From the NCBI RefSeq assembly GCF_001718415.1, contig NZ_CP013377.1, positions 868,001-932,000 on the forward strand: 64,000 bases of DNA. The letters run 5' to 3'. This document shows positions 354-14,972 of this stretch, piece by piece; the stretch's first letter is position 1, and each line of letters opens with the position of its first letter. The translations under genes were made by a program, and so were the position numbers. Origin of the DNA: Burkholderia pseudomultivorans (lineage in GTDB: Bacteria > Pseudomonadota > Gammaproteobacteria > Burkholderiales > Burkholderiaceae). Below the pieces are notes generated by a model that was not told the origin of the DNA, ran no database searches, and saw only the letters and a list, made by a program, of their open reading frames with translations.

Positions 354-478
354 GGTAATTACCTTTCGCTCCCAGGGGAGAGTTGCCGTTTGGTGTTGAT
401 GTCAGAAAGCGACCGGATCGCGGTGCGCTACTTTGCGGATTGCTTACTTCCTGGCTATCCGGCAGAAAGTCTGCCACA

Positions 479-496
479 TGACTTGATCAATTGACC
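479..496 (-). promoter_or_regulatory. Operator-like site A
   Basis: On the minus strand it reads GGTCAATTGATCAAGTCA: an imperfect dyad GGTCA-AT-TGATC plus a conserved AAGTCA flank. It matches the cluster consensus. A tiny plus-strand ORF with a VNP start begins 32 bp to the right, the same geometry as site B to the aldehyde dehydrogenase start. Confidence 0.6.
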
Positions 497-527
497 GTGT
501 AGTAGAAAGTATTGCTCGAAAAAGTCC

Positions 528-554
528 ATGTCGATGAAGGTTAACCCTCTGTGA
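528..554 (+). other. Mini-ORF with MSMKVNP start (possible scar of a deleted gene)
   Basis: ATG-TCG-ATG-AAG-GTT-AAC-CCT-CTG-stop encodes MSMKVNPL. Its first 20 bases match the ORF at 3385 at 18 positions, and a related VNP start occurs at 14973. All three lie near copies of the operator-like element. It is more likely a leftover 5' gene end or leader than a functional peptide. Confidence 0.35.
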
Positions 555-800
555 TGTTCGCCAGAGACTCGGCCGCCGAGCGGATGTGAACCCGCCGTTG
601 GGTCGGCGAGCCACGCCGGTCTTCGTGGGAAAAGCGACTGCGGTGTGTTCCCATTTCGCCGGAAAGCCCCGTGGCGTCTCGCAATCATTGCCTTCAGGCC
701 GCAGTTTCGGTAGACCTTGACGGGGCCCGAACTGTGGACCGTTCCTTCGAGCGTCTTACTTTGTCTCGCTCATGGCAATGCTGATTATTACGTAGTCGTG

Positions 801-820
801 TGACTTGGACAAATGATCAA
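801..820 (-). promoter_or_regulatory. Operator-like site B
   Basis: On the minus strand it reads TTGATCATTTGTCCAAGTCA. It differs from the consensus mainly by GT instead of GA in the second arm. It ends 36 bp before the aldehyde dehydrogenase start, so a bound repressor would occlude that promoter. Confidence 0.55.
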
Positions 821-856
821 AAAAGACGCTAGTATGGATCGTCCAGGGCGATTTCG

Positions 857-2362
857 ATGACTGATGACGTGCCCCGAGACCAACTGACATGGAGCGAGCT
901 GATGCCGATTTTTGAAGCAGATCATCTCCGCCGGGCGTTCATCGGCGGGCGATGGGTGGAGCCGGTGAACGGTGGCATTGAACAGGAAATTGTCGATCCG
1001 GCGACGGGGGAGGGCTCCGGAGTCTTGCTGTTCTCCGACGAGGCGGATGTGGACCTGGCGGCGAAGGCGGCGAGCGATGCCTTCGCAACGTTCTCGAACA
1101 CGCCGCTGGTCGAGCGGCTCAAAATACTCGAGGCCGTGATCGCCGTATACACCGAGCGGTTGCAGGATATGGCGGACGCCATCACGCTCGAGATGGGCGC
1201 GCCGATGGAAGCCATTTCCCGTCCGCTCCAGGCAGCGCTGGGACTCTGGCACCTTCACACGACGCTGGAAGTCGCCAAGCAATACCCGTTCGAGCGAATC
1301 CAGGGCACATCGCGGATCGTGAAGGAGCCAGTGGGCGTGTGCGGGTTGATTACCCCGTGGAACTGGCCGATGAACCAGGTCATGTGCAAGGTCGCACCGG
1401 CGCTGGTGACGGGTTGCACGATTGTGTTGAAGCCCAGTCAGAATGCCCCCTATTCGGCCATCGTTCTCGCCGAGATCCTCGAACAGGCAGGCGTGCCGCC
1501 GGGTGTATTCAATCTCGTGCAGGGCTCGGGGCAACGCCTGGGGCGGGCGATCGCTTCCAGTCCGCTCTTCGACATGGTGTCGCTGACGGGGTCGACGAGC
1601 GCTGGCGTGGAGGTTGCCCAGGCCGCGGCAACGACGATCAAGCGGGTGACGCTGGAGCTCGGGGGGAAATCGGCGAACATCATTCTGGACGGCGAAAACT
1701 TTCAACAGGCCGTGACGCACGGCGTGCTGCAGATGATGGTCAATTCCGGTCAGACATGTACCGCGCCGTCGCGAATGCTGGTGCCGGCGCATCGCCTCGA
1801 CGAGGCGGAAAAAATCGCCGCGGCCGCGTGCGCGCAGGTCGTCGTCGGCGATCCGCGCGATCCGAGCACGACGATGGGCCCGATGGCGAACCAGCGCCAG
1901 CATCGGAAGGTGCAGGAGATGATCCAGGCAGGAATCGACGAGGGCGCGCTGCTCCTGTCGGGCGGACTCGGCAGTCCTCCCGGGCTCGAAAGAGGTTACT
2001 ACGTCAAGCCGACCGTCTTCAGCCGCGTGAACAATCAGATGAGGATTGCGACGGAGGAGATTTTCGGTCCGGTACTGGTGATCATTCCCTATCGGGACGA
2101 ATCCGACGCTGTTGCCATCGCCAACGACTCGCCGTACGGTTTGTCGGGATACGTCTATGGAGAATCGATCGAGCAGGCAGAGCGGGTTGCAAGAAAACTG
2201 CGGACCGGGATGGTACATTTGAACGGTGCTGCAGCCGATATCGCAGCGCCGTTCGGCGGTTACAAGCAGTCAGGAAATGGGCGCGAATGGGGCTACGCCG
2301 GCATCGAGGAATTCCTCGAGACGAAGTCCATGTTCGGTGCGACCCCGGGTGCCGTCAGCTGA
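857..2362 (+). CDS. NAD(P)-dependent aldehyde dehydrogenase
   Basis: A full-length (501 aa) ALDH-superfamily enzyme that oxidises an aldehyde to the carboxylate with NAD(P). The Rossmann/catalytic signatures are in order: PWNWP near residue 166, the cofactor-binding segment KPSQNAPYSA, LELGGKSANI with general base Glu267, GQTCTAPSR with nucleophile Cys301, and EEIFGPVL in the C-terminal half. The N-terminus is ambiguous: the ATG at 857 has a poor ribosome site, while an in-frame ATG at 902 is preceded by GGAG. Site B is directly upstream, so the gene probably belongs to the TetR regulon of this cluster. A likely substrate is the aldehyde left by P450 or amine oxidation steps; specificity cannot be read from sequence. 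Confidence 0.92.
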   Translation: MTDDVPRDQLTWSELMPIFEADHLRRAFIGGRWVEPVNGGIEQEIVDPATGEGSGVLLFSDEADVDLAAKAASDAFATFSNTPLVERLKILEAVIAVYTERLQDMADAITLEMGAPMEAISRPLQAALGLWHLHTTLEVAKQYPFERIQGTSRIVKEPVGVCGLITPWNWPMNQVMCKVAPALVTGCTIVLKPSQNAPYSAIVLAEILEQAGVPPGVFNLVQGSGQRLGRAIASSPLFDMVSLTGSTSAGVEVAQAAATTIKRVTLELGGKSANIILDGENFQQAVTHGVLQMMVNSGQTCTAPSRMLVPAHRLDEAEKIAAAACAQVVVGDPRDPSTTMGPMANQRQHRKVQEMIQAGIDEGALLLSGGLGSPPGLERGYYVKPTVFSRVNNQMRIATEEIFGPVLVIIPYRDESDAVAIANDSPYGLSGYVYGESIEQAERVARKLRTGMVHLNGAAADIAAPFGGYKQSGNGREWGYAGIEEFLETKSMFGATPGAVS

Positions 2363-2537
2363 GTGGAACCGACGACGGGCGCTCATCTCGGGTGGGCGCC
2401 CCGCTGTCAGTCGTCGTCCGTCGACGGAGCGGCGACGATATCGCGACGCGCGTTCAAGCGCGATGTGGCGCAGATCGGCATCGCATCGGCCCTGTCAGGT
2501 CGTTGGCCTTCGGCACAACGTAGCACTGCGTCGATTC

Positions 2538-3137
2538 TCAAGCGTGTGTGGTCGAGTTCGAGATCGAATCGGCAAACGCCTCCAACGCCGAGCTCGCACT
2601 ATCCAGATTGGCCTCGAGCCCGTCGAGGTCGGTTTCGTTCTGCCAACTGTTCAGCAAACCATCGATCAGGATAATGCTCATTCGTGCGACAGGCTCGAGC
2701 ATGTCGTAGCTCACTTTGGGCACATGCTTGCCGAAGTAAGCGATCGTTCGCTCGACAGTCTGAATGTAGGTTTTCAACGCGAAATCCGGACGATGACGCT
2801 CCGCCCACTGGATCAGCTCGGACTGCGCGCGGGCGTACGACGGATTCCGTACGAGCCATTCGACGGTCTCGCGCAACTGCCATCCGGCGAGTTCGCCCAG
2901 CGAGTGAAATTCACCATGAGCTGGAATGTCCGTTGCGAGAAGATCGAACAGGGATTCGTAAACTGCGTCGAACAGATCGTCCTTAGTCCGAAATACATAA
3001 TGGAGCGACGCGAGAGGGCAGCATGCGGCTTGCGCGATGCGTCTCGTCGTGGCGCCAGCGACGCCATGCGCGGCGATGACTTCCACGGCAGCGTCAACAA
3101 AATCCTGTCGCCGCATCGCAGCGCGAACTCGTGTCAT
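2538..3137 (-). CDS. TetR-family transcriptional regulator (paralogue 1)
   Basis: 199 aa with an N-terminal TetR helix-turn-helix: GVAGATTRRIAQAACCPLAS followed by LHYVFRTKDDL, residues about 25-55. The start at 3137 has GGAG seven bases upstream. The C-terminal ligand domain is helical and not specific. It is clearly paralogous to the regulator at 3721-4350 (MTRVRAAMRRQDFV against MQRVRAEVRRQDLV, and ATTRRIA.AA.CPLASLHYVF shared). Operator-like site C lies 72 bp upstream and site D about 200 bp upstream, which suggests autoregulation. I infer it responds to a substrate or CoA intermediate of the cluster. Confidence 0.9.
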   Translation of the reverse strand: MTRVRAAMRRQDFVDAAVEVIAAHGVAGATTRRIAQAACCPLASLHYVFRTKDDLFDAVYESLFDLLATDIPAHGEFHSLGELAGWQLRETVEWLVRNPSYARAQSELIQWAERHRPDFALKTYIQTVERTIAYFGKHVPKVSYDMLEPVARMSIILIDGLLNSWQNETDLDGLEANLDSASSALEAFADSISNSTTHA

Positions 3138-3208
3138 TGATAAACTCCGGTACCCGAAAATCCTCGTTCGTTCACGTCTTGTGGGTGTGTAGCGTTCATT
3201 CGCATTAC

Positions 3209-3222
3209 ATGGTCAATTGACC
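3209..3222 (+). promoter_or_regulatory. Operator-like site C
   Basis: ATGGTCAATTGACC holds a perfect 12-bp palindrome (GGTCAATTGACC) but lacks the AAGTCA flank of the other sites. It is placed 72 bp upstream of the minus-strand TetR start at 3137, as expected for autoregulation. Confidence 0.5.
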
Positions 3223-3337
3223 ACAACGGTCGTGAATTATGTCGGCTTCTTGAAAGTTTGTCCATGGAAGCGCTGACCAATGGTTTCCCGGATGCCTCGC
3301 TTGCCAAGTTGAGTCATGGACGAGAAAGGTGTTCGAT

Positions 3338-3355
3338 TGACTTGGTCACTTGACC
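3338..3355 (-). promoter_or_regulatory. Operator-like site D
   Basis: On the minus strand it reads GGTCAAGTGACCAAGTCA, a full match to the consensus arms and flank. The plus-strand mini-ORF at 3385 begins 30 bp to the right, the same spacing as site A to its mini-ORF. Confidence 0.55.
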
Positions 3356-3384
3356 TTTCGGAAAAGTAAGCAGCCGAAGATTTG

Positions 3385-3423
3385 ATGTCGATGGAGGTAA
3401 ACCCGTGGGGACGAGGGGCGTGA
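3385..3423 (+). other. Mini-ORF with MSMEVNP start (possible scar of a deleted gene)
   Basis: A 12-codon ORF, MSMEVNPWGRGA then stop. Its 5' 20 bases are nearly identical to those at 528. GAAG lies a few bases upstream. The match, including the distance to the operator-like site, implies duplication of a promoter and gene start followed by loss of the gene body. A leader peptide is the alternative. Confidence 0.35.
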
Positions 3424-3720
3424 CGTCGGCCCAGAGGGCGTCTGGTGAGTCGCGCTCGCATGGGAATTGAACTGGAATGCCGGAAGTGGCGCCAGTGGAT
3501 TCTCTGAGGTGCTGATTACCGCGTCGCGCTTGTTGCGGTAGGGGCGAGCGTCGCGTTTCCGTAACGGGCGTTCGAACAGGGTATGCGCACCGAGTAGCAC
3601 CGCACGCGACGAAGCCATCAACGTGATGCGTTACGAGCCGAGCAGGCATTCGCAAAGAGGTGATGCGAACCTCGCCGCGGCGAGGCCGATGCAACCCGGT
3701 GTCTAGGGGGCAGAAACTGC

Positions 3721-4350
3721 TTACGGCTTCCGTGCTGACTTGCGAGCGGTCTTCGCGGGCGGACCAGCGTCCGAAAGCGTTGCCGCATAGGCGGCCAGCA
3801 TCTTGCTCGCATGGTCGACGTCAGCCGCCAGGCGTTTCGAGTCTTCTTGAGCAAACCAGGAAAAAAGTAGCCCGTCCACCAGGACAACGGTCAGCCGCGC
3901 GACGGCATCCAGCGCTTTTGCACTGGGACGCGGCTCGGCGGCGGAAAGATAGCCACGCGCGCCTTCCAACGAGATACGAAGGGCCCCCACGGCCACTTCG
4001 GGCTGATGTCGCAGTGCCCATGTATAGAGTTCCGACTGGGTTTTTGCGTATGCCGGGTTTGCTTCGAACCAGGCCATCACCGAGCGCAAATTGAATTCCG
4101 CGAGGTCAGACAGGGTGCCATGCTCGGGCGCTTCCGGGCTATCCGTGCGGATCAAGTCGATCAAGGACTCATAGACCGCGAACAACAGTTCGTCCTTCGA
4201 GTGAAAGACGTAGTGCAGCGAAGCAAGCGGGCAACCCGCAGCTTCGGCGATGCGACGGGTCGTGGCGCCCTTTACACCGTGCTCTGCAATAACCGCGACA
4301 GTCGCCGCTACGAGGTCCTGGCGGCGGACTTCAGCCCGTACTCTCTGCAT
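3721..4350 (-). CDS. TetR-family transcriptional regulator (paralogue 2)
   Basis: 209 aa from the ATG at 4350, which has GGAG eight bases upstream and aligns with the start of the paralogue at 2538-3137; an upstream ATG at 4395 would add 15 unsupported residues. The HTH reads GVKGATTRRIAEAAGCPLAS then LHYVFHSKDEL. The C-terminus carries a Lys/Arg/Ala-rich tail (KTARKSARKP) not present in paralogue 1. Two similar TetR proteins in one cluster fit recognition of the same operator family with different ligands. Sites E and F lie 0.4-0.6 kb upstream, on the way to the next gene. Confidence 0.9.
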   Translation of the reverse strand: MQRVRAEVRRQDLVAATVAVIAEHGVKGATTRRIAEAAGCPLASLHYVFHSKDELLFAVYESLIDLIRTDSPEAPEHGTLSDLAEFNLRSVMAWFEANPAYAKTQSELYTWALRHQPEVAVGALRISLEGARGYLSAAEPRPSAKALDAVARLTVVLVDGLLFSWFAQEDSKRLAADVDHASKMLAAYAATLSDAGPPAKTARKSARKP

Positions 4351-4653
4351 AGGCCAGTGCTCCGTTTGATGTCTTCGTCCTAAGGTGCTACCCACGCCGG
4401 GTAGTCGAATCGCTGGATATTAGCATGACGATGAGCGCTATTCCGCGAGCCTCGTAAGGCGTTGCTGCGCACGGATGTGATGTGCGTGGCGCTGCGTGGG
4501 AAACGTGACGCCCCCGACGCATGCCCGATGTGACCTTGGTGCCGCATGCCGGGGAGCGGGGCGGTGCGCCACACGGCAATCGGTCGGCATGCGATTCCAT
4601 CCCGCAGATGGTCGGCTGCGAGCCGGTGTCGATGCAGATGCAGGTCACTCTTT

Positions 4654-4665
4654 GGGGGGGGGGGG
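4654..4665. repeat. Poly-G tract (12 G)
   Basis: Twelve consecutive G on the plus strand in non-coding DNA between TetR paralogue 2 and the operator-like sites. Such tracts slip easily; here it could alter promoter spacing, or simply be neutral or an assembly-sensitive spot. Confidence 0.8.
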
Positions 4666-4770
4666 CAGGCGTGATCGTGTGAGTTCGGGGCCGCGCTTTC
4701 ATGTCGCGGCTAGTGGAAACCCCGTATTCCAAATGTCAATTCGGCGCATAAGACTCGTGCCTGTAGATAC

Positions 4771-4790
4771 ATGGTCATTTGATCAAGTCA
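4771..4790 (+). promoter_or_regulatory. Operator-like site E
   Basis: ATGGTCATTTGATCAAGTCA matches every position of the cluster consensus. It is 234 bp upstream of the IRED-like gene and is the outer of two sites in that promoter region. Confidence 0.55.
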
Positions 4791-4931
4791 GTCACTCTGC
4801 ACCGCTAGCGTGGCTTGAGTCGTTACGTGGTGCGGCGAGTGCGCGGCTCCGGGGCGTGTGTGCCGCTGCAGGTCATGCAAGCGCAACGCAGGGACCGCGA
4901 GCACGTGAATACTTGGTACGTGTCTTGCTGT

Positions 4932-4951
4932 ATGGTCATACGACCAAGTCG
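4932..4951 (+). promoter_or_regulatory. Operator-like site F
   Basis: ATGGTCATACGACCAAGTCG, one mismatch at the last consensus base. It ends 73 bp before the start of the IRED-like gene, a position suited to blocking its promoter. Same orientation as site E, 161 bp apart. Confidence 0.55.
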
Positions 4952-5024
4952 TTTGACTGTATTGATCGATGTGAATGATGATTGTCTTGCTGCAACGTGG
5001 TAGACGACACGAGAGGGTGTACGA

Positions 5025-5882
5025 ATGAGCAACTTGATTGCTGTCTTGGGTCTGGGCGCGATGGGATCCGCGATCGCCGTCTCTCTGATTGAGCATGGCG
5101 AGAAAGTCGTCGTCTGGAACAGGAGCTCAGGAAAGGCTCAACGTGTGTCCGAGCTCGGCGCCCGAGTGGCCGACAGTGTGACGGATGCCTGTGCGCAGGC
5201 GGATGTCATCGTCGTCGTGACCGCGACACCGACCGACGTCGCGAGCGACTTCGAGGAACTGGGCGAGGGCTTGCAAGGAAAAACGATCGTCAATCTGGCA
5301 ACGGGGCGTCCATCCGAGGTCCAGGCGCTGGATCGGCTCGTGAGCCGCGTCGGCGCGAAATTCATCAGCGGGACCATCCAGTGCTTTCCGCCCGATATCG
5401 GCAGAGAAAGCGCAACCATCCTTTTTGGCGCCGAGGTGAATGTCTGGAACGAAGTCGAGCCCTTCGTGAGAAAGATCGCGCCGCAATCCGTCTACGTCGG
5501 TGCACGCCCCGATGTACCGAACGTGCTCGATGCCGGGTTGACGGGAACCTTCGTGTTTGGTGCTGGCGCAGCCTTCCTGGAAGGTCTCCGGTTCATCGTG
5601 AATTCGGGCATGTCGATCGACGAGATTCGTGGCTTGATTCCCACTTATATCGCTGGTCAGGCGCGCTTTATCGAAGGCCTGTTCGAATCCGTGGCGGCTT
5701 CCGACTATCAACCTCGGGGCGCTAACCTGGACGTATACGCGCGAGCAGTCGCGCTGTTCCAGCAGGCGCAGGAGGACGCGGGGCTGCCGCCGCGAATCCT
5801 GAAGGCGTTACGCGAGCGAATCCTGTCATCCATTGCGGAAGGCGATGGTGACCGCGGATACGCTGCTCTTTTCAATCATTGA
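5025..5882 (+). CDS. NAD(P)-dependent dehydrogenase, imine reductase-like (beta-HAD superfamily)
   Basis: 285 aa; AGAGGG lies eight bases before the ATG. N-terminal Rossmann fold GLGAMGSAIAVSLIEHG (residues 9-25), then VVVWNRSSGKA, where WNR-S/T-xxKA is typical of NADP-binding imine reductases. Further IRED-like blocks are NLATGRPSEV (90-99), CFPPDIG (120-126) and NVLDAGLTGTFVFGAG (166-181). The catalytic Lys of hydroxyisobutyrate/hydroxyacid dehydrogenases (in G..GxxxK) is not seen; Asp169 sits where IREDs, as I recall them, carry Asp or Tyr. Function is therefore more likely reduction of an imine, or the reverse oxidation of an amine, than hydroxyacid oxidation. It pairs functionally with the aminotransferase at the window start and is followed after 21 bp by the oxygenase gene, probably co-transcribed. 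Confidence 0.8.
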   Translation: MSNLIAVLGLGAMGSAIAVSLIEHGEKVVVWNRSSGKAQRVSELGARVADSVTDACAQADVIVVVTATPTDVASDFEELGEGLQGKTIVNLATGRPSEVQALDRLVSRVGAKFISGTIQCFPPDIGRESATILFGAEVNVWNEVEPFVRKIAPQSVYVGARPDVPNVLDAGLTGTFVFGAGAAFLEGLRFIVNSGMSIDEIRGLIPTYIAGQARFIEGLFESVAASDYQPRGANLDVYARAVALFQQAQEDAGLPPRILKALRERILSSIAEGDGDRGYAALFNH

Positions 5883-5903
5883 CAACTTGTTGGAGGAAAC
5901 ACC

Positions 5904-6782
5904 ATGTCGTTGCAACGCCTTTCAAGTGATAGCAGTCCTGAAGACCTGGCGAATGCGGTTCGCCAGGATGGCGGTGCGATCGTCAAGAACTTTGTCGGTT
6001 CCGACCTGCTCGCACGTATCCAGCGGACACTTTTCGACACGCTCGAATCTGCTCCGAACGGCGTAGACGAATACTTCGCGGGTACACAGACGCGGCGAGT
6101 TTCGCGGCTCTTCGCACGCACCGACTGGATGGCCGAGGTCGCTTTGCATCCGCTCTACCTGGGCGCCGCGCGCAGCATTCTGCAGACGCCGATCAAGATC
6201 TGGAGCGGCGAAAACCAGGTCGATATTGCACCCGATATTCAGGTGGGCGTGACGCAGGCCATTCAGATTCGACCGGGTCAAGGCCTGCAGCCCTTGCATC
6301 GCGACGATTCTGTCTGGCTCTGGCGACACCCGAACTACGGTCGCGAAGCCCGGTTCCAGGTCATGGTGGCGGTATCGGACTTCACCGAGGAAAACGGCGC
6401 CACACTCGTCATTCCCGGCAGTCACAAGTGGGACGACGAGCGCATGCCCAAGCAGGAGGAAGCGGTTTCCGCGGTGATGTCCGCCGGCGATGCCCTTTTC
6501 TTCATCGGCTCGACCTATCACGGCGGCGGGAAGAACGTCAGCGATGCGCCGAGAACGGGCCTGACGATGTCGTATGACCTGGCGATCCTCCGTCAGGAAG
6601 AAAACCAATACCTCACGTTGCCGATCGAACGTGTGAAGCGCTTTCCGGAGGAACTGCAGCGATTGCTCGGCTGGACCTACGGCACCACGTTTGCCGGCTT
6701 CGTCGAGCGTAACGGACAAATGTCAGACCCGAACGATCTGCTGAAAATGAAGGATTTCCTCGAGGTCGGTCACTTCGACTGA
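5904..6782 (+). CDS. Phytanoyl-CoA dioxygenase (PhyH) family Fe(II)/2-oxoglutarate oxygenase 1
   Basis: 292 aa with GGAGG before the ATG. The double-stranded beta-helix metal triad is visible: His132-x-Asp134 in LHRDD and His206 in STYHGGG. Arg217 in APRTGLTMSYD is the expected 2-oxoglutarate-binding residue. FTEENGATLVIPGSHKW (160-176) is the classic PhyH block. It hydroxylates an unactivated carbon, or less often performs other oxidations, at the cost of 2-oxoglutarate and O2. The cluster carries a second, distant PhyH protein (13886-14761), so two separate positions or intermediates may be oxidised. The substrate need not be a CoA ester. Confidence 0.9.
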   Translation: MSLQRLSSDSSPEDLANAVRQDGGAIVKNFVGSDLLARIQRTLFDTLESAPNGVDEYFAGTQTRRVSRLFARTDWMAEVALHPLYLGAARSILQTPIKIWSGENQVDIAPDIQVGVTQAIQIRPGQGLQPLHRDDSVWLWRHPNYGREARFQVMVAVSDFTEENGATLVIPGSHKWDDERMPKQEEAVSAVMSAGDALFFIGSTYHGGGKNVSDAPRTGLTMSYDLAILRQEENQYLTLPIERVKRFPEELQRLLGWTYGTTFAGFVERNGQMSDPNDLLKMKDFLEVGHFD

Positions 6783-7219
6783 CGGACCTGATGAGCGTTG
6801 GAATTACCGCACTTTTTCCCTGTAGAAATTGGGCGGTTCCCATCGCAGAAGGCATCGTAGTCGGTCGGCATCATGTGCGAGCGGGCCGGCGCGATGCGCG
6901 TAGGTGGGGCGAAATCGGGGCTTCAGCGCAAGCGAATCGTCGCTTAAAACCTGCTGGAGCTGCCGGTCTTGCATATTCAGGATGCTGCCTGGTGGGCACG
7001 TCCTGCTACCTGTTGCCTCGTAGATATCGAGTTTGACCCGTTTCGAGAATTGCCTTGGCCGTCGATATGGCGGTCGGCGAAGCGCGAACGAGCTCGATAT
7101 CGCGATTTATCGGTCGGTGGAAGCCATCTTCGAAACAGTCCACGTGTGGGTGTGAGCAGCAGGGCGTTCGAGATCCTTCGACGCGCTCTCGCATTCGTGC
7201 AAACGGCAAGGAGCGCATC
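6783..7219. other. Intergenic region upstream of MFS transporter
   Basis: About 440 bp. No operator-like copy of the cluster element. A weak promoter (TTGGAA, 17 bp, TGTAGA) begins near 6799. The stretch around 6950-7010 can be read as a protein-like fragment (LHIQDAAWW), possibly a gene remnant, but I cannot assign it. Confidence 0.4.
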
Positions 7220-8368
7220 GTGAGTTACGAAATCAAGGGGATCCGTAAAATCGCCCTGCTTTACACGGGGGCCGTGGTATGGACCCCAACCTATCTGCTT
7301 CCGTTCAACATCGAGGAATCGATGGCCCGGTTCGGACTATCCGAAAGCAGCGCTGGATGGCTCGCGTCCGCGGTGCTTCTCTGTCTTTCGCTTTCTATCG
7401 TCATTTTTGGACGGCGCATGGCGACGTTGAACAAGAGAGCGGGCGCACTGATTGCGGCGGCGCTTGCCGTTTTGTCAACTTGCGCGATGTTTTCGAACAA
7501 TTTCTATGTATTTGTCGCCGCCAGGCTGGTTCTCGGCGTCGCCTTGGGTGTGAGTTGCGTGTGTGCGTACGGTGTTATTGCGCACGTCAAGCACCCGGAG
7601 AAGGTCGCGGCTCAAGTCGCTGTGGCGATGGCCGTCATATTTTCTGTCGCGATGTATGTCGTGCCGGTCGTGAATGCGAAGGTGGGGAGCATCGGCGTGG
7701 ATGCCGTCCAGCTCGCCATTGTCGTGGCAGCCCTGTTTTTCGGCGCGTTCATGCATCCCGCCGTCAACGCCAGCGAGGAAGGCGTCGCGAAGGATGCGAT
7801 CAGATCCAGCGACGTCCGCGGGATTCTGGTCAGCGCATTCTTCATCTACGTTTCGCAGACAGCCCTCATGGGGTTCGCCGCGGAGGTCGCGGCAACCCGT
7901 GGCGTCGAGGCGCAGCAACTGGGCATTCTGTTCATGATCAATGCCGCCGCTCAATTGCCGGTGGGCGTAGCGGTTTCCTGGTTGGGTGATCGTTGCGGAT
8001 TGTTCAAGCCGATCGTGTTTGGGCTCATCGTGTTGATCGCATGCAGCCTGGGCATGTATTGCGTGGGCGGTAAATGGGCGTTTCTCGTGTCGACGGCCCT
8101 GATCAGCGCCGGTGCGACGCTGGTTGCGCCGTATATGGTGGCGGCGCTCTCAAAAATGGATTCCAGCGGCAGAAGCACCGCGACCTGTGCGTCGGCAATC
8201 AATTTGGGCCTGGCAGTCGGCCCCGCGATTGCCGGAACGGTGTTCAGTGTGGCCGGTTTGCGCGCGGTTGGCTGGCTTTCCGTCGGGTTGCTGGTGGTGC
8301 CGATTCTGCTGACCAGCGTTGCGATCCGACAGTTCAAGTCGAGACATTCCGAAGCTGCTGTCGCGTGA
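7220..8368 (+). CDS. MFS transporter
   Basis: 382 aa from the GTG at 7220, chosen because AAGGAG stands seven bases upstream and because the alternative ATG at 7055 would add 55 hydrophilic residues of no transporter character. About eleven to twelve hydrophobic segments are visible with an MFS-like cytoplasmic loop after TM2 (FGRRMATLNKRAG) and a C-terminal half ending in a basic tail. It sits in the inner membrane. No substrate motif is recognisable; the position suggests uptake of the cluster's substrate or efflux of a product. It follows the oxygenase after a 437-bp gap and may have its own promoter. Confidence 0.85.
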   Translation: MSYEIKGIRKIALLYTGAVVWTPTYLLPFNIEESMARFGLSESSAGWLASAVLLCLSLSIVIFGRRMATLNKRAGALIAAALAVLSTCAMFSNNFYVFVAARLVLGVALGVSCVCAYGVIAHVKHPEKVAAQVAVAMAVIFSVAMYVVPVVNAKVGSIGVDAVQLAIVVAALFFGAFMHPAVNASEEGVAKDAIRSSDVRGILVSAFFIYVSQTALMGFAAEVAATRGVEAQQLGILFMINAAAQLPVGVAVSWLGDRCGLFKPIVFGLIVLIACSLGMYCVGGKWAFLVSTALISAGATLVAPYMVAALSKMDSSGRSTATCASAINLGLAVGPAIAGTVFSVAGLRAVGWLSVGLLVVPILLTSVAIRQFKSRHSEAAVA

Positions 8369-8555
8369 CGCGTGAGGCGGAGCCATCGACAGGCGCTGCG
8401 ACCGCACCACGCGGCGGGGCTGCTGCCTGACACGGCAGTGCGGAACCGTCCGGTATCGGTCGGACCATTTCGCGCCGGCAGGCGATGCAGGGAATGGCGC
8501 GAACGCGGTTGAGCTCAAGCACTAATGAAATTCTCGACTATCACTGGATCTCTTC

Positions 8556-9245
8556 ATGGAAATCAAATTTTACCTTTATTGTCTTGCCGATCTCACCTTG
8601 ATAGTGACTTCGCTGATATGTGGAGTGAAGTATCTCGTTAAGCGAAATGGTCTGCTCGGGTTCGAGTCGCTGGTCGTGACGTTCTCCGCAACGAATTTGA
8701 TGATCAATGCTTTGACTGGGAATCCCGCCTTTTTTGAAGTTTCTATTTTTTGCGACGCGTTTTCCAGAGGATTCGGTGTGCCGGTCATCACCATTGCCGC
8801 GATGATGGCTGTCACGCACCGATACAAGCCATCGATTTTAGGTGACGTGATGTATGTGGTGGGCGCACTGGCGGGAACCGTTGTTTTGTGGGCAGCGGAT
8901 TTCATGATCGGACCCAAGCCGTATTTCTATCTGGTGATGTGGTCCTTGTTCTCGCTCTACCTCGTCTACGTCATCAAGAAGTTGATAGACGCGGGAGAGA
9001 ACCGGAACGCTGCGAGCGTGACACTGGCACTGGTATCCACGCAGATCATCGCGAGTATCTACGACTTCTACCACATACCCGGAGATAGCGACCACATGAT
9101 TTTCTACACACTCGCCATGTTCTCCTGGTCGTACATGTCCGTCTCACTGTATTTCGCCTATTGTGCTTTGGAGCGCGCCCAGGAGGATGAAATAAAGCTC
9201 AATCGACGCTATGCTGTTGGTGCCATGCGTCGACATCCAAACTAG
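8556..9245 (+). CDS. Polytopic membrane protein of unknown function
   Basis: 229 aa with about seven predicted membrane spans (roughly residues 5-26, 33-54, 65-87, 94-118, 123-144, 152-170 and 183-205) and a hydrophilic basic C-terminus (ALERAQEDEIKLNRR onwards). I do not recognise the family. Charged or polar residues within spans are few (Asp12, Glu37, Asp160), so transport or small-molecule binding cannot be argued. It is the last plus-strand gene of the cluster, 187 bp after the MFS gene and convergent with the thiolase operon. GGA before the start is a weak ribosome site. Confidence 0.7.
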   Translation: MEIKFYLYCLADLTLIVTSLICGVKYLVKRNGLLGFESLVVTFSATNLMINALTGNPAFFEVSIFCDAFSRGFGVPVITIAAMMAVTHRYKPSILGDVMYVVGALAGTVVLWAADFMIGPKPYFYLVMWSLFSLYLVYVIKKLIDAGENRNAASVTLALVSTQIIASIYDFYHIPGDSDHMIFYTLAMFSWSYMSVSLYFAYCALERAQEDEIKLNRRYAVGAMRRHPN

Positions 9246-9477
9246 TTGTCGTGCCCGACGAAACGCCTTGATTCACTTATGCAATGGAAAGGGAGAGGCG
9301 AAGGAACGTCGCGAGCCGAGTTCGATCTACGTGATGCCGGGCGATGTTGCCCGACGTCACGGTGATGGTGGGACAGTGAGCGGGACTCCGGCTGTTTGCC
9401 GGCCGGGGCGTCCCGGAGTCGAAGGGCTTCGGGTTCGAAACGCACAAGACGGAAGGCACATGTCCTGCGGGCCAACC

Positions 9478-9588
9478 TTATTGGGTCGAGTCGTAATGCT
9501 CGATATGGTACAGAACCATGAATCCCGGGCTCAATACGAAAAATATCCCGGCGATAAGCGAGATTGCGATGAATAAGCGCTTCACCAT
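9478..9588 (-). CDS. Small single-span membrane peptide (36 aa)
   Basis: ATG at 9588 has a strong GGAGG six bases upstream. The product begins MVKRLFIAISLIAGIFFVL and continues SPGFMVLYHIEHYDSTQ: a basic N-terminus, one hydrophobic span and a short polar tail, typical of bacterial membrane miniproteins. It lies 102 bp downstream of the thiolase stop and could be the last cistron of the minus-strand operon. No family recognised. The combination of ribosome site and topology makes chance unlikely. Confidence 0.6.
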   Translation of the reverse strand: MVKRLFIAISLIAGIFFVLSPGFMVLYHIEHYDSTQ

Positions 9589-9690
9589 GACCAGCCTCCG
9601 TGTTTGATGAGCTGAATTTGAAAGCCATTTTTTGCGAACATCCCGGGAACGCAACGCCATGTTCGTGTTCCCGGGATGAGACGCATTGAT

Positions 9691-10875
9691 TCAAGCGACT
9701 TCGAACAAGCCGGCCGCACCCATTCCGCCGCCTACACACATCGAAACAACGACGTAGCGTGCACCGCGTCTTTTGCCTTCGATCAGGGCATGGCCGACCA
9801 TGCGCGCGCCGGTCATCCCGTACGGATGGCCGATAGAAATGCTGCCGCCGTTGACGTTGTATCGCGCGGGATCAATTCCCAGCTTCTCACGGCAGTACAG
9901 CGCCTGGCAGGCAAACGCCTCATTGAGCTCCCATAAGCCGATATCGTCAGTTTTGAGGCCATGAAGCTCCAGAAGCTTGGGGATCGCGTAGATGGGACCG
10001 ATGCCCATCTCCTCCGGCGCATTGCCGACGACGGTCATGCCTCGATAGATACCGAGAGGGGTGGCCCCGATCTGCTCGGCGGTTTTTCCGTTCATCAGGA
10101 CGCAGGCGCTTGCACCGTCCGAAAGCTGGCTCGCGTTACCCGCCGTCACAACGCCGCCGTCGATTACCGGTGCGAGCGTGGCCAGCGATTCGAGCGTCGT
10201 GCCGGGACGATTTCCCTCGTCCTGCGTGAGCGTGACCTCATGCCTCGACGTCGTGCCGGTCGTTTTGTCGACGACCAGCTTCTGTGTCGTGATCGGAACG
10301 ATTTCGCTCGAGAAGCGGCCGGCGGCCTGTGCGGCGGCAGTGCGGAGCTGGGAATCGAGTGCGTACTGATCCTGGACGTCCCGAGAGATCCCGTACTTGC
10401 GGGAAACGAACTCGGCGGTCTCGAGCATTGGCATGTAGGCCGCGGGTTGCGCGGCCAGCACATTGGGGTCCTCGTCGGCGCGGGTCCACTCGAAGTAGCG
10501 CGTTTGTACCGCAGAGATGTTTTCCTGGCCACCCGCCACAACAACCTGCATCCCGTCGCACATAATCTGCTTGGCAGCCGTCGCGATCGCCATCAGGCCA
10601 GACGCACATTGCCGGTCGAGTGTTTGCGCAGCGACGCTGGCAGGCAATCCGGCTGCCAGCACGCCGTGTCGGGCGATATTGCCGCCGGCGGTCCCGGCGT
10701 TGAGTACCGAACCGATCACGGCGTCCTCGATGCGATCCGGCTCGATGCCGGCACGCAGGACCGCGTGCCGGATTGCGTGCCCGAGCAGGGTAGGCGAGTG
10801 CGTGAGGTTGAATGCACCGCGATATGCCTTTCCGATGGGCGTACGTGCGGTGGAAACGATGACGGCATCAATCAT
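9691..10875 (-). CDS. Acetyl-CoA acetyltransferase (thiolase family)
   Basis: 394 aa, normal thiolase length. The acyl-accepting Cys90 lies in LDRQCASGL, the His350 motif in [11 protein letters not shown], and the second catalytic Cys380 in [21 protein letters not shown] precedes them. Soluble enzyme that thiolytically cleaves a 3-ketoacyl-CoA, or condenses acetyl-CoA in the reverse sense. It lies 54 bp after the acyl-CoA dehydrogenase and belongs to the PhyH2-SDR-ACAD-thiolase operon, so the cleaving direction (beta-oxidation) is favoured. No enoyl-CoA hydratase or acyl-CoA ligase is seen nearby; these may lie left of the window or be supplied elsewhere. Confidence 0.93.
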
Positions 10876-10929
10876 ACGGCATCCTTATTGATGAGGAGAT
10901 GGAGGTGAAATAGAGACGTTGAGTCCGGG

Positions 10930-12753
10930 TTAGAACCAGTGTTCGGGCATGGTGAGCGGGGTCGTCTCCACCGGATCGAGAACGGCGAGCCACGCGGTCA
11001 CCTTGGGCATTTCCCATCCGAAGAAGTAGTCGCACGCGGCGAGTTTGCCGCGATGAAAGTCGGTTCCCGTCGGGCCGTTCTGGAGCGTGCCGGCCACAAT
11101 TGCTTGATCGAGCCAAAGCCAGCCGACCACTACATGCCCGAATGCTTCGAGATAGGCAGCCGCATTCGCCAACTGGACATCGGGGTCGTCGAGCTTGTGC
11201 AACGTATCGGTGACGACGCGGATGTGCTCCCACGCGCTTTCGAGCGTGCTGGCGTGACGCTGGAGCGACGGAGTCGACCGCACCCTGGATACCGTTGCGG
11301 CGATTCTCCTGTCGAGAGTCGCCATGGCGACACCGCCGTTTGAACGTGTTTTTCGACCCAGCAGGTCGAGCGCCTGAATGCCGAACGTGCCTTCGTGTAT
11401 CGGATTGAGTCGGTTGTCGCGATAGAACTGCTCGACGTTGTATTCGCGCGTGTACCCATACCCGCCGTGAACCTGAATGGCGAGATCGTTGGCGACCAGG
11501 CCCCATTGCGATGGCCAGCTCTTGACAACGGGCGTGAGCAGATCAAGCAGGCAATGTGCTTCATCCCGGCCGTCGGCGTCTTCCAGAGAATGGATATCGT
11601 CGCTCAGACGGGCCGCGTACAGACACAACGCCAGCGCGCCGGAGACATAGGCCTTCTGCGCCAGCAACATGCGCCGGACGTCGGCATGGCCGATGATGGG
11701 AATCTGCCCGGATGTGGGCGACCGGTCGCCGCGTGGCCGGCCCTGCGTGCGGGTCTTTGCGTAATCGAGCGCGTGCAGGTAGCCCGTGTATCCGATCGAG
11801 GCCGCGCTGAGGCCGACCGAGATACGTGCCTCGTTCATCATGTGGAACATGTAGGCCAGCCCTTTTCCGGGCTCGCCGACGATCTCGCCGATTGCGCCGG
11901 CCTCGCCCTCAGGGCGGTAGCGCCCCTCGCCGAAATTGAGCAGGCAGTTCACGGTGCCGCGATACCCCATCTTGTGATTGATGCCCGCCAGCGCGACATC
12001 GTTTCGCGGGCCCGGCAGGCCGTCGGGGCCGATCAACTTGCGCGGAACCGTGAAGAGCGAGATGCCCTGGATTCCCGGCGGAAGCTGGCCGTTCTCGTCG
12101 GGAATCTTCGCCAGCACCAGATGGACGATATTCTCGGCAATCTCGTGATCGCCGCCCGAAATCCACATCTTGTTGCCGAACAGGCGGTAGCGGCCGTCCT
12201 TGCTCGGGACCGCACGCGTGCGGATATCGGCCAGGCTCGACCCGGCTTGCGGCTCGGACAGGCACATCGTGCCGAAGCATCGGCCTTCCGACATCGCCTT
12301 GACGTAATGCTCCACGCGCTCCCGTTCGCCGTGGGCCATGAGCAGATTGGCATTGGCGATGGTGAGAAACGCATAGCCCGCGGTGCCGGGATTGGCGGCA
12401 AGCAAATAAGCCATGCCGGCTCGCTCCACGGTGCTCGGCAGACACATGCCGTTCCATTCGGCGGGGAACGATGCGCTGATCAGGCCGGCGTCCGAAAATG
12501 CGCGCAGGGCGATTCCGACTTCCGGATTGATGGTGACGCGCTCTCCGTCGAATGCGGGTTCGTTGCTGTCGTTCTTCTTGTTATGCGGCTTGAAGAGATC
12601 CGTGGCGAGCGATTCGTAGACATCGAGCACGGATGTGTAGTCGATTCGGTCTTGCCCGGCATATCGTTGCCGGCGAGCGAGAGACTCGACCTGCAGCCAG
12701 TCGAAAAGAATGAACTCCACGTCGCGACGGGAGAGGGTGAGTTCGCTAGTCAT
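10930..12753 (-). CDS. Large acyl-CoA dehydrogenase (about 600-residue type)
   Basis: 607 aa, longer than standard 380-residue acyl-CoA dehydrogenases and of the FadE/DmdC-like type with an extra C-terminal helical domain. FAD/substrate signatures are GTMCLSEPQAGSSLADI and KMWISGG in the middle, VNCLLNFGE, and QVHGGYGYTREYNVEQFYRD near residue 430. Catalytic Glu454 is in PIHEGTFGIQALDLLGRK. It introduces a double bond into an acyl-CoA, passing electrons to ETF (etfBA genes occur at 36.4-38.1 kb in this window, though not linked to this operon). The ribosome site is weak. It is 93 bp downstream of the SDR gene. Confidence 0.92.
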   Translation of the reverse strand: MTSELTLSRRDVEFILFDWLQVESLARRQRYAGQDRIDYTSVLDVYESLATDLFKPHNKKNDSNEPAFDGERVTINPEVGIALRAFSDAGLISASFPAEWNGMCLPSTVERAGMAYLLAANPGTAGYAFLTIANANLLMAHGERERVEHYVKAMSEGRCFGTMCLSEPQAGSSLADIRTRAVPSKDGRYRLFGNKMWISGGDHEIAENIVHLVLAKIPDENGQLPPGIQGISLFTVPRKLIGPDGLPGPRNDVALAGINHKMGYRGTVNCLLNFGEGRYRPEGEAGAIGEIVGEPGKGLAYMFHMMNEARISVGLSAASIGYTGYLHALDYAKTRTQGRPRGDRSPTSGQIPIIGHADVRRMLLAQKAYVSGALALCLYAARLSDDIHSLEDADGRDEAHCLLDLLTPVVKSWPSQWGLVANDLAIQVHGGYGYTREYNVEQFYRDNRLNPIHEGTFGIQALDLLGRKTRSNGGVAMATLDRRIAATVSRVRSTPSLQRHASTLESAWEHIRVVTDTLHKLDDPDVQLANAAAYLEAFGHVVVGWLWLDQAIVAGTLQNGPTGTDFHRGKLAACDYFFGWEMPKVTAWLAVLDPVETTPLTMPEHWF

Positions 12754-12846
12754 GGAATAGAGTAAGTTGGCTTCTGCTGCTTTCGTAATCGTCCGGATCT
12801 CTTCAATAAACTGAGGGATCCGCTGCGGAGCGCTGTCCGGGATTTG

Positions 12847-13779
12847 TCATGCAGCCGAATGCTCCTGTGCATTCGCCGAGGTGACGCGGGCCTTGGTGAG
12901 TTCGAGATCGCCCTGGGCCGCTCCGGACGAAGGAACAGTCTCGCCGTTCCGGCTCGTGACCTCGTCAAGGCGCTGGGCGAGCTGGTGAACGATCTGGTCG
13001 CCAGTTCCGAGATGGATGCCGGGTGTCAGCGTGATATGTGCGGCCTCGAAGCTGCCTGCGCCCGCGCACAAGATCATCCGACTCGGTGCGTCTTCGGCGG
13101 CAAGTACCGCTACCGCAGGGCTGACCGACGCAGGCGACAGCGTGTCGAGAGTGTCCGCCGACATCAGGCCTTCGAGCATGCGTGTCCCGGCCGTTGGCGC
13201 AAGGCAGTTCACGCGAATGTCGTATCGCTCGCCTTCGATGGCCAGTGTCTGCATCAGGCCTACGAGCGCCATCTTTGCGGCGCCGTAGTTCGATTGCCCG
13301 AAATTGCCGTACAAGCCGGACGACGACGTCGTCATCACGATGCGGCCATACCGTTGCTCCCGCATGGTTTCCCACACGGCCTTTGAACAATTGACCGCAC
13401 CCATCAGGTGCACTTCGATCACCGCACGAAAGTCGTCGAGCGTCATCTTGCTGAAGCTCTTGTCGCGCAGGATGCCGGCATTGTTCACCAGGATGTCGAC
13501 CCGGCCCCATTGCGAAAGTGCTTGGTCGACCATGCACTGGACCTGTTCGAAATCGGTAACCGATGCGCTGTTCGCGACGGCCTCACCGCCGGCTGCGACG
13601 ATTTCGTCGACGACCCGCTGTGCGGCCGTGGCAGAGCCGCCGTTGCCGTTCACGTCGCTGCCCAGGTCGTTGACCACGACCTTTGCCCCCAGTCGGGCAA
13701 GCAGCAGTGCATGCTCGCGGCCGAGGCCTGCACCGGCGCCGGTCACGATCGCAACACGGTTCGTCAGATCAATCTTCAT
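12847..13779 (-). CDS. SDR-family dehydrogenase, (3R)-hydroxyacyl-CoA dehydrogenase-like (MFE type)
   Basis: 310 aa from the ATG at 13779, where the Rossmann fold begins (MKIDLTNRVAIVTGAGAGLG); an ORF extension to 13986 overlaps the upstream oxygenase gene and is rejected. NDLG at 37-40, the NNAG motif at 99-102, and catalytic Ser152-154/Tyr165/Lys169 (SNYGAAK) are present. The insertion VVNDLGSDVNGNGGS is what I know from the dehydrogenase unit of peroxisomal multifunctional enzyme 2. It therefore probably oxidises a (3R)-hydroxyacyl-CoA to the 3-keto form for the thiolase. The hydrophilic C-terminal 50 residues are not part of the core fold. Confidence 0.88.
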   Translation of the reverse strand: MKIDLTNRVAIVTGAGAGLGREHALLLARLGAKVVVNDLGSDVNGNGGSATAAQRVVDEIVAAGGEAVANSASVTDFEQVQCMVDQALSQWGRVDILVNNAGILRDKSFSKMTLDDFRAVIEVHLMGAVNCSKAVWETMREQRYGRIVMTTSSSGLYGNFGQSNYGAAKMALVGLMQTLAIEGERYDIRVNCLAPTAGTRMLEGLMSADTLDTLSPASVSPAVAVLAAEDAPSRMILCAGAGSFEAAHITLTPGIHLGTGDQIVHQLAQRLDEVTSRNGETVPSSGAAQGDLELTKARVTSANAQEHSAA

Positions 13780-13885
13780 GGGTTGTCTCGTTGATGGTGA
13801 TTGTGTAGTGGCTTGCGAATGTGCGTGGAGGAATCCGGAGCGGCATGGCTGGATCTCACGCCGATGCAAGTTTTCTGCTGGTGGC

Positions 13886-14761
13886 TCACAGGCCGAGGTG
13901 CGTTGCAATATCGTCGTAGTCGACTTGCCACAGGCCCGGCGTTCCAGCCGGATATTGAGAACGGAAGCCGATGATTCGCTGGACACGTTTCGACAGGCCT
14001 CTCACGATGTCCATATCCACGATGAACGGATACGCTTCCTCCGGGGTCAGGTAGGACGGCTGCATCGGCAGCGTGAGCCCGCGTCGACGCTCGTTTTTCG
14101 TCACGTTCGCACCGCCGCCATGGATCACCTTCCCGCTAAACAACAAAGCGTCGCCGGCATCCATCTCGGCGGCGATGGTCATTTCGGGCGTGCCCTTGCT
14201 GTTGAAGTAGTCCTCGTCCCAGTTTTGGCTCCCCGGAATAATTCGGGTGGCGCCGTTTTCCTCGGTGAAGCGCGTAAGGGCGATCATCAGGTTGGTAAAC
14301 ACCGTGGGACCGTTGACTCCGAGCGCGCACAGAGGCGGGAAGTTACCGACATCGCGATGCAGCATTTGTGCGGTGTTCCCGGGGCCGATGTCGATCACCT
14401 GGGCGGTCGACAGCCACCAGTCGCCGGACTCTTCTCGGTATAGCACCTCCCCGAGTGCATGAAAGAGATCGTCGTCGAGTACGCTGCCAAAGGTCTTGCT
14501 GTGCGTGATCATGTTCGTCAGGCGCTTTGTATGCGCGCCGTGGAATTCCTTGATCAACTCATTTTCGTGTGACGATCCTTCGCGAAGCCTCTCGAGCGGA
14601 CCATCGACCTCGCGATTGATGTTCGCGACCTGTTCTTGCGACAGGTAAGCCTTGATTCGAACTCCGCCGTACTGATTCATCAGCGATACGATCTCTTGGG
14701 CACTAGTCGTCTTTGGGACGATGGGGAGAGAGTTCAGATTGTTCAGAATATTTTTGCTCAT
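13886..14761 (-). CDS. Phytanoyl-CoA dioxygenase (PhyH) family oxygenase 2
   Basis: 291 aa; GAGGA before the ATG. Metal ligands His135-x-Asp137 (MLHRDVGN) and His214 (KVIHGGGANV), 2-oxoglutarate Arg227 (RRRGLTLPM), and the block FTEENGATRIIPGSQNW at 165-181. It shares the fold and central block with oxygenase 1 but is otherwise divergent, so the two are not a recent duplication. It is the first gene of the minus-strand operon that continues with SDR, acyl-CoA dehydrogenase and thiolase, suggesting that the hydroxylation feeds directly into beta-oxidation. Operator-like site G lies 151 bp upstream. Confidence 0.9.
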   Translation of the reverse strand: MSKNILNNLNSLPIVPKTTSAQEIVSLMNQYGGVRIKAYLSQEQVANINREVDGPLERLREGSSHENELIKEFHGAHTKRLTNMITHSKTFGSVLDDDLFHALGEVLYREESGDWWLSTAQVIDIGPGNTAQMLHRDVGNFPPLCALGVNGPTVFTNLMIALTRFTEENGATRIIPGSQNWDEDYFNSKGTPEMTIAAEMDAGDALLFSGKVIHGGGANVTKNERRRGLTLPMQPSYLTPEEAYPFIVDMDIVRGLSKRVQRIIGFRSQYPAGTPGLWQVDYDDIATHLGL

Positions 14762-14911
14762 TCGTTCCTCGAGGCGGTACGCGATAGGTAACGGAGTGCA
14801 TGCTCGTCACACCCATGTTTCGAGAACTCGAAGGCTACGGCTCGATGCCGGACATGACACACGTGGAATCTGGTCGGGGAGTATCCGGTGATGCGGTGTG
14901 TTCCCGGAAAT

Positions 14912-14931
14912 ATGATCAAACGATCAAGTCA
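14912..14931 (+). promoter_or_regulatory. Operator-like site G
   Basis: ATGATCAAACGATCAAGTCA matches the cluster consensus throughout and is followed by an inverted half-site ATGACTTG. It lies 151 bp upstream of the second PhyH gene, linking the beta-oxidation operon to the same regulator(s) as the aldehyde dehydrogenase and IRED-like genes. Confidence 0.55.
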
Positions 14932-14972
14932 CATGACTTGAAAATTATCACTGTGCGCATCCAGGGTCGATC

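Follow-up and report, generated by a model that had tools for sequence, protein, structure and literature searches.

A tandem double-dyad element as the predicted operator of a TetR subfamily across a catabolic gene cluster of Burkholderia pseudomultivorans

The left part of a 64-kb stretch of Burkholderia pseudomultivorans DNA (the window; C1:868001-932000 of a 7.96-Mb genome in three contigs) carries part of a catabolic gene cluster in which one operator-like element recurs between genes. A sequence-only reading had described seven sites sharing this element, understood as a dyad plus AAGTCA and placed in gaps before aminotransferase, aldehyde dehydrogenase, TetR, imine-reductase-like and PhyH genes; it had taken them to define a regulon across the cluster and had proposed two paralogous TetR proteins as candidate binders. 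That interpretation is supported by the comparisons reported here, while the picture it drew is incomplete as to how far the cluster reaches, how the element is built from two dyads and which wider TetR subfamily accompanies it.

From its left edge, the window contains the start of a class-IV aminotransferase gene (1-353, minus strand; Pfam Aminotran_4), which extends left of the window (L032:17373-18353), an aldehyde dehydrogenase gene (857-2362, plus strand; Pfam Aldedh), and two genes on the minus strand for TetR1, the predicted repressor (2538-3137), and its paralogue TetR2 (3721-4350). These are followed on the plus strand by genes for an imine-reductase/reductive-aminase-like oxidoreductase (IRED; 5025-5882; Pfam NAD_binding_2 and RedAm-like_C) and a PhyH-type Fe/2-oxoglutarate oxygenase (PhyH1; 5904-6782; Pfam PhyH), and then by an MFS gene and a gene for one protein without a Pfam match. 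Five minus-strand genes come next: an acetyl-CoA acyltransferase (thiolase) gene (9691-10875; NCBIfam TIGR01930, above cut-off), an acyl-CoA dehydrogenase gene (10930-12753; Pfam), an SDR oxidoreductase gene (12847-13779; the best NCBIfam SDR models matched below their cut-offs), a gene for a second PhyH-type oxygenase (PhyH2; 13886-14761; Pfam PhyH), and a gene for a CYP102-type P450-reductase fusion (15312-18500; Pfam, the nearest solved chains being P450/reductase fusions). The best solved relative of PhyH2 is a chain named DhiD (8zyb), ranked above several fungal natural-product oxygenases; no relevant paper on that name appeared among those listed, and no substrate is deduced from it.

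Searching the window with the 20-base pattern of the earlier reading, up to three mismatches being allowed, returned exactly seven matches (479-498, 801-820, 3205-3224, 3338-3357, 4771-4790, 4932-4951 and 14912-14931), against 0.06 expected and a maximum of one in 100 dinucleotide shuffles; the seven sites are thus all present, and all seven are intergenic. Distances to start codons, measured from the centre of a 31-bp matrix site, confirm their placement before the named genes and can be followed through 12 homologous clusters, namely those of 11 Burkholderia genomes (the present one included) and of G387 from another genus. The predicted operator of the aminotransferase gene (471-501, minus strand; matrix score 36.8) lies 133 bp from its start codon and 132-134 bp from it in 12 of 12 clusters; that of the aldehyde dehydrogenase gene (793-823, minus strand), overlapping a -35-like hexamer, lies 49 bp from the start, with a range of 49-65 bp in all 12. 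TetR1 has a proximal site at 75 bp (3197-3227, minus strand), which in 11 of 12 clusters stays 46-77 bp away from the mapped start of TetR1, its G006 counterpart reaching 20.4 bits and hence falling below the 22-bit cut-off, and a distal site at 208 bp (3330-3360, minus strand), present in 11 of 12 clusters and absent from G387. Two further sites precede the IRED-PhyH1 pair, a distal one (4768-4798, plus strand; 242 bp from IRED, 242-249 bp in 12 of 12 clusters) and a proximal one (4929-4959, plus strand; 81 bp, 78-82 bp in 12 of 12) that carries a -35-like TTGACT within its second dyad, and the last site, found in the matrix scan with kept distances, lies 163 bp before PhyH2 (14909-14939, plus strand). 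The 4771/4932 pair is assigned to the IRED promoter because its distances to IRED are constant whereas those to TetR2 drift (428-617 and 589-786 bp over the 12 clusters); autoregulation of TetR2 through the 4771 site was rejected on the same grounds.

At several promoters a second operator stands about 130-195 bp upstream of the first (for example 4768/4929 and 3197/3330 in the window), and relatives keep the distances; such pairs might serve looping or reflect a second promoter. The TetR2-IRED gap also holds a run of 12 G at 4654-4665.

The sites are concentrated at this one locus. In a whole-genome scan, all eight matches to an 18-base core with at most one mismatch fall within a single 35-kb stretch (C1:847482 to 882931), two of them left of the window, with no scatter of equally good matches elsewhere. 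At exactly two mismatches, two of six genome matches lie inside the cluster, and at up to three mismatches the genome holds 39 matches against 5 for the reversed pattern; the two-mismatch matches at C1:1207931 and C2:239807, 740737 and 3457658, whose neighbours were viewed as open reading frames only, are not counted as members. Three further members lie left of the window (C1:847482, 854888 and 855038), giving a cluster total of ten sites over 35 kb, of which 20 kb lie beyond the window. The window covers only part of the cluster. Towards the other side, no matrix score exceeds 11 bits between C1:882910 (window 14910) and the end of the window, in agreement with the claim that the core part of the window is free of sites.

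Alignment of the ten sites yields about 29 conserved columns, in which AT-rich letters are followed by RGTCAnnYGACY and then by AAGTCAnnYGAY, the element consisting of two RTCAnnYGAY dyads at a pitch of 13 bp. The first dyad was thus correctly recognized at the outset; the true element is longer, and the AAGTCA once taken as an appendage comprises the spacer and the second dyad's left arm. Across the 12 clusters, dyads exactly 13 bp apart were counted 127 times against 0.2 expected in shuffles, a pair in which both dyads are exact being counted twice in data and shuffles alike, and the next-commonest spacings were 8 bp (21 counts; the units overlap) and 48 bp (10 counts). Units one further step out look mostly random, with a partial third unit (two of eight letters off) at C1:855038 and 872934. 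In its letters, the element shows the arrangement of a QacR-like pair of dimers, that is, two adjacent or overlapping palindromes per operator.

Conservation of the element follows the TetR pair closely. TetR1 and TetR2 occur together, about 600-640 bp apart, in 11 of 65 genomes of the genus (the present one included), and the site, at no more than one mismatch, occurs in the same 11 genomes, 5-10 times in each, with 81 of 82 matches on the contig of the TetR pair. It occurs once in one of the 54 genus genomes lacking the pair (G005), a match that falls within overlapping long open frames and is taken as chance; the reversed pattern occurs in none of the 65. The expected co-occurrence with the pair is accordingly borne out (Fisher p 1.3e-11, which is not a true probability given that the genomes are related), as is conservation in homologous clusters. 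Among 398 family genomes TetR1 is found in 11, and, by a reading of the match table, all of these and no others carry the exact double dyad at least twice, at separate places, within 60 kb; the reversed control, counted from the same table, matches in 18 of the 398 and is less common than the forward pattern. A class-wide sample of 369 genomes contained TetR1 in one, the present genome, and the protein is therefore rare.

Within the 12 clusters, 147 matrix sites score at least 22 bits, a cut-off set after viewing the training scores (lowest leave-one-out score 22.0), and none of the 147 lies inside a mapped gene (28 genes mapped). Distances from sites to the same start codons are kept, and dyad letters and pitch remain constant while flanks differ. 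Where genes stand elsewhere, sites stand with them: in G003, the off-contig match stands 164 bp upstream of an SDR gene, behind which come genes for an acyl-CoA dehydrogenase and a thiolase, with a CYP102-type gene adjoining, all 88-94% identical to their counterparts in the present cluster and not mapped in the main cluster of G003. Because this second-contig group carries its site, the genes appear to have moved and the site to have gone along. Sites also precede separately located SDR or acyl-CoA dehydrogenase genes in G019 and G043, and a separate acyl-CoA ligase gene in G018, G019 and G043, there at 293-296 bp. In G387, TetR1 and TetR2 lie 13 kb apart and three transport genes are 46-67% identical, DUF1302 not being mapped; 11 matrix sites are present, at kept distances before aminotransferase, aldehyde dehydrogenase, IRED, the second monooxygenase and TetR1.

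Both regulators contain a TetR_N domain (Pfam; 37.8 bits in TetR1 and 41 bits in TetR2 against a cut-off of 24) and stay below the curated cut-offs of the named NCBIfam TetR equivalogs BetI, RutR, AcrR, PsrA and FadR, the best being BetI at 37.7 and 44.3 against 201.3 bits. B. stagnalis LMG 28156 has an identical TetR1 protein. The paralogues agree at 74% of residues 1-62 and 39% of the remainder, with 20 of 23 identical in residues 28-50; TetR1 has the helices ATTRRIA...CPLASLHYVF, and TetR2 the same PLASLHYVF helix. Both are present in 12 of 12 genomes that carry either. Since their DNA-reading halves are alike and their ligand halves have diverged, the pair may feed two inputs into a single set of operators.

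Outside the family, the best TetR relatives in the genome collection are those of Pseudomonas and Stutzerimonas (43-50% identity), whose helices read ATTRRIA...PLA[S/T]LHYVF as in TetR1 and TetR2, with a near-identical recognition helix. All eight of the Pseudomonas/Stutzerimonas loci have 13-bp-pitch dyads about 335-390 bp upstream of the TetR gene, seven with three exact units and the remaining one with two exact units and one with a single mismatch. In P. resinovorans (L099) the array separates the TetR gene from DUF1329-DUF1302-RND-YCF48 genes, a module of the type seen in the Burkholderia cluster, and a search of two genomes, those of L099 and L105, gave no further exact double dyad. Among 198 Pseudomonadaceae genomes, 15 contain the TetR (16 genes; a single match in 14 of the 15), all 16 genes have, within their 1.5-kb flanks, a dyad pair at the 13-bp pitch with one mismatch or none, and the exact double dyad is present in 14 of the 15 genomes with TetR against 14 of the 183 without. 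One Pseudomonadaceae genome without the TetR at E 1e-30 holds a single double dyad that is exact on both strands (G870:C7:9616-9638; L188), which may mark a more distant TetR relative.

Plasmids extend the association further. The P. aeruginosa plasmid p12939-PER (496 kb) carries a TetR/PhyH/DUF1329/oxidoreductase cluster (L162:1-20576) with three arrays, located before DUF1329, between PhyH and TetR, and in front of the gene for an NAD(P)/FAD-dependent oxidoreductase, the last with one mismatch; in plasmid H15, also from P. aeruginosa, one degenerate array lies between PhyH and TetR. A Rhodococcus koreensis megaplasmid, whose record has no gene annotation, carries within 16.6 kb two exact arrays and a third containing a mismatch (L166:2592, 7852 and 14177), around the gene for a 37%-identical TetR, suggesting a putative actinobacterial version of the regulon, and a Tsukamurella plasmid has one array with one mismatch. 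Observed against expected counts of the 13-bp pitch were 31 against 0.03 in Pseudomonas, 7 against 0.03 in the two P. aeruginosa plasmids, 5 against 0.0 in R. koreensis and 1 against 0.01 in Tsukamurella. The operator check covered five of the six TetR matches, and the array was found in two of the three actinobacterial relatives opened.

The sites, their double-dyad form, their placement in gaps, their conservation and their association with this TetR subfamily in Burkholderiaceae, in Pseudomonadaceae and on two plasmids of actinobacteria are read directly from the DNA. Because the element stands in gaps before many genes of the cluster, and in Pseudomonas and some actinobacteria accompanies a TetR gene of the same kind, these predicted repressors would probably bind there. 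It is thus likely to be the operator of a small TetR subfamily, here TetR1 and TetR2, that would keep the pathway off through dimers lying side by side on dyads spaced 13 bp apart. Both paralogues are proposed as binders because they share the recognition helix, with TetR1 having sites in its own promoter region, and repression is proposed because certain sites run into or directly adjoin promoter-like hexamers and because repression is the usual mode of TetR proteins. Six promoter-like matches occur in 15.5 kb, four of them on or within 10 bp of operators, including those at 806-835 (plus strand) at the aldehyde dehydrogenase operator, at 3264-3236 (minus strand), ending 9 bp from the TetR1 proximal operator, and at 4953-4982 (plus strand) at the IRED-PhyH1 proximal operator. 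In the proposed mechanism, TetR dimers would occupy both dyads of each operator when no substrate is present, one dimer per dyad, covering the promoter, with TetR1 limiting its own gene as well and control reaching genes further down each operon; a substrate or intermediate of the oxidative pathway would act as inducer by binding the C-terminal half and releasing the dimers, and transport, oxidation and beta-oxidation would open together.

Several observations weigh against this account. The second dyad is imperfect, with 0-2 of its 8 fixed letters off in the window and in all ten sites of the genome; the six promoter-like matches compare with 4.7 expected by chance; and no site lies closer than 400 bp to the TetR2 start, for which reason only TetR1 looks autoregulated. 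The matrix finds no site in the 313-bp gap between aminotransferase and DUF1329, so that control of the transport genes from the aminotransferase site is putative. Exact double dyads also occur in 49 of 387 family genomes without TetR1, as single matches, overlapping tandem repeats or matches far apart, and among the 14 TetR-less Pseudomonadaceae genomes with an exact double dyad, five share one identical 23-mer. R. gordoniae, with a 36%-identical TetR and the helix PAASIHYCF, has no array at up to two mismatches, operator loss going together with helix change in this one case only. Binding, the sign of control and the ligand are predictions from sequence.

Among other explanations, the one with the best prospects, though clearly less probable than joint action of the pair, is that only one TetR protein binds the sites while the other has a different role, as a mixed-dimer partner or at other targets. 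The two sites upstream of the TetR1 start, with none near TetR2, and the sufficiency of a single TetR gene in 14 of 15 Pseudomonadaceae genomes speak for such a division, whereas the nearly unchanged residues 28-50, the wholly identical PLASLHYVF helix and the invariable joint occurrence of the paralogues speak against it. That another regulator reads the sites is very unlikely. An OmpR-type response regulator gene lies inside the Burkholderia cluster (L032:9743-10444), a 46%-identical relative lies left of the efflux genes, an unlinked protein might also be considered, and OmpR-type proteins bind tandem sites. The response regulator is nevertheless set aside as binder because mapping at a 40% identity limit did not place its gene anywhere on the 50-kb G387 contig, which retains the sites; none is annotated in 20.6 kb of p12939-PER either, and the TetR gene is the element common to the Burkholderia, Pseudomonas and actinobacterial loci.

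It also seems improbable that the TetR proteins bind these sites mainly as activators, as some members of the TetR family do: the distal sites about 200-290 bp before the start codon at several promoters would be compatible in position, but some proximal sites overlap or abut promoter-like hexamers, sites precede TetR1 itself, and most investigated TetR-family members repress (PMC3511530). Least credible of all is the view that chance, a mobile repeat or an element acting at the RNA level, and not a protein site, accounts for the family; although copies occur on both strands, the shuffle expectation of 0.06 in the window, the retention of dyad letters and pitch while flanks differ, and the lack of any copy outside the cluster at zero or one mismatch leave this explanation hardly any room. 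Beyond repression by the pair, it can be speculated, with rather modest expectations, that the duplicated TetR proteins read one DNA code with two different ligand pockets, stacking on the 13-bp-spaced arrays together perhaps with their mixed dimers, so that the whole oxidation and export pathway would open only with two pathway compounds present, and that array length (two to three units) would set switch sharpness in each lineage.

The gene content beyond the window indicates what such an operator set may control. On the left lie an RND efflux operon, an aldehyde dehydrogenase gene, an FMO/Baeyer-Villiger-like monooxygenase gene, an Abhydrolase_3 esterase-like gene and a long-chain acyl-CoA ligase gene, next a second monooxygenase and hydrolase, a GMC oxidoreductase and the OmpR-type response regulator, and then, in the opposite direction up to the window, YCF48/BNR, MMPL/HAE3-like RND, DUF1302, DUF1329 and the class-IV aminotransferase; of the two monooxygenases, the first was compared with solved structures. 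The efflux operon, comprising membrane fusion protein, pump and outer-membrane factor (C1:841593-847402; L031:11593-17402), is divergent from the left aldehyde dehydrogenase gene with an operator between them, and because of this position the pump may be a regulon member. DUF1302, DUF1329, YCF48/BNR and HAE3-type RND genes stand together as in an AmeABCD-type module, the match to the HAE3 model TIGR00921 lying below cut-off (183.3 against 351.9 bits). By inference, the aminotransferase operator also serves these transport genes behind the aminotransferase, and the PhyH2 operator the SDR, acyl-CoA dehydrogenase and thiolase genes behind PhyH2.

The set under putative control is read as one for oxidation of a hydrophobic, possibly amine-bearing compound combined with an AmeABCD-type exporter of hydrophobes. 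Its predicted oxidation genes comprise the CYP102-type P450, two FMO/Baeyer-Villiger-like monooxygenases, two esterase-like hydrolases, the GMC oxidoreductase, two aldehyde dehydrogenases, the acyl-CoA ligase, the acyl-CoA dehydrogenase, the thiolase, two PhyH oxygenases, the IRED and the aminotransferase. In the classical order of degradation, hydroxylation leads to a ketone, the ketone to an ester, the ester to an alcohol plus an acid, and these to beta-oxidation; the gene set fits this order with added amine chemistry (IRED and aminotransferase).

Multi-dimer operators of TetR proteins are already known (QacR, CprB, CgmR, RolR, EthR, DarR). FadR of Sulfolobus acidocaldarius is a TetR-family repressor acting at four sites in one 23-gene fatty-acid cluster that includes its own gene, each operator taking one or two dimers on a 16-bp dyad motif (PMC6449355); the present system resembles it in having a TetR-type regulator with few sites over one cluster including, as predicted, its own gene, and differs from this archaeal case of one regulator and a 16-bp dyad in its two paralogues and fixed 13-bp double dyad. 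In Mycobacterium tuberculosis, several EthR dimers bind cooperatively to one long operator, as an octamer on 55 bp (PMC9210681), but with another motif and at one operator in the description, in contrast to the cluster-wide set found here. QacR, CprB, CgmR, RolR and DarR place two dimers on adjacent or overlapping palindromes, in RolR two palindromes within 29 bp (PMC4150764, PMC9210681, PMC10636190), whereas the present arrays consist of two or three copies of one dyad at a constant pitch, the number depending on lineage.

For the transport module, the AmeABCD exporter of Castellaniella defragrans serves monoterpene metabolism (PMC6394551), and PP_0765/PP_0766 of P. putida are needed for use of Tween 20 (PMC10866462). 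DUF1302, DUF1329, YCF48/BNR-like and HAE3-type RND genes stand together here as in those cases; unlike in these accounts, which describe no TetR operator in the parts available, the Pseudomonas module, and presumably the Burkholderia one, is preceded by a TetR-linked operator. The 'possible alkane degradation cluster' RGP10, from P. aeruginosa isolates of crude oil (PMC7145413), resembles p12939-PER in its order of RND, DUF1302, DUF1329, FAD oxidoreductase, PhyH, TetR, almA-like oxidoreductase and hydrolase genes, and the available portion of its account describes no operator or regulation. A literature search of partial coverage returned no account of this TetR subfamily, of its operator, or of arrays of two to three dyads at 13 bp across phyla. 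A possible RutR operator of similar letters, sought in the same way, yielded no paper and plays no part in the interpretation.

Altogether, an unannotated gene cluster becomes a defined, testable candidate regulon with a precise operator and a likely regulator subfamily, and in two bacterial families a single regulator subfamily is tied to the little-understood DUF1302/DUF1329 transport module. The operator offers a handle for finding pathway genes, relocated ones included, and for finding the substrate through what releases the TetR proteins. The naturally varying array of two or three dyads, together with a paralogue pair that shares one helix and has diverged ligand halves, would make a good system for studying TetR dimer cooperation and the way in which regulator duplication builds logic.

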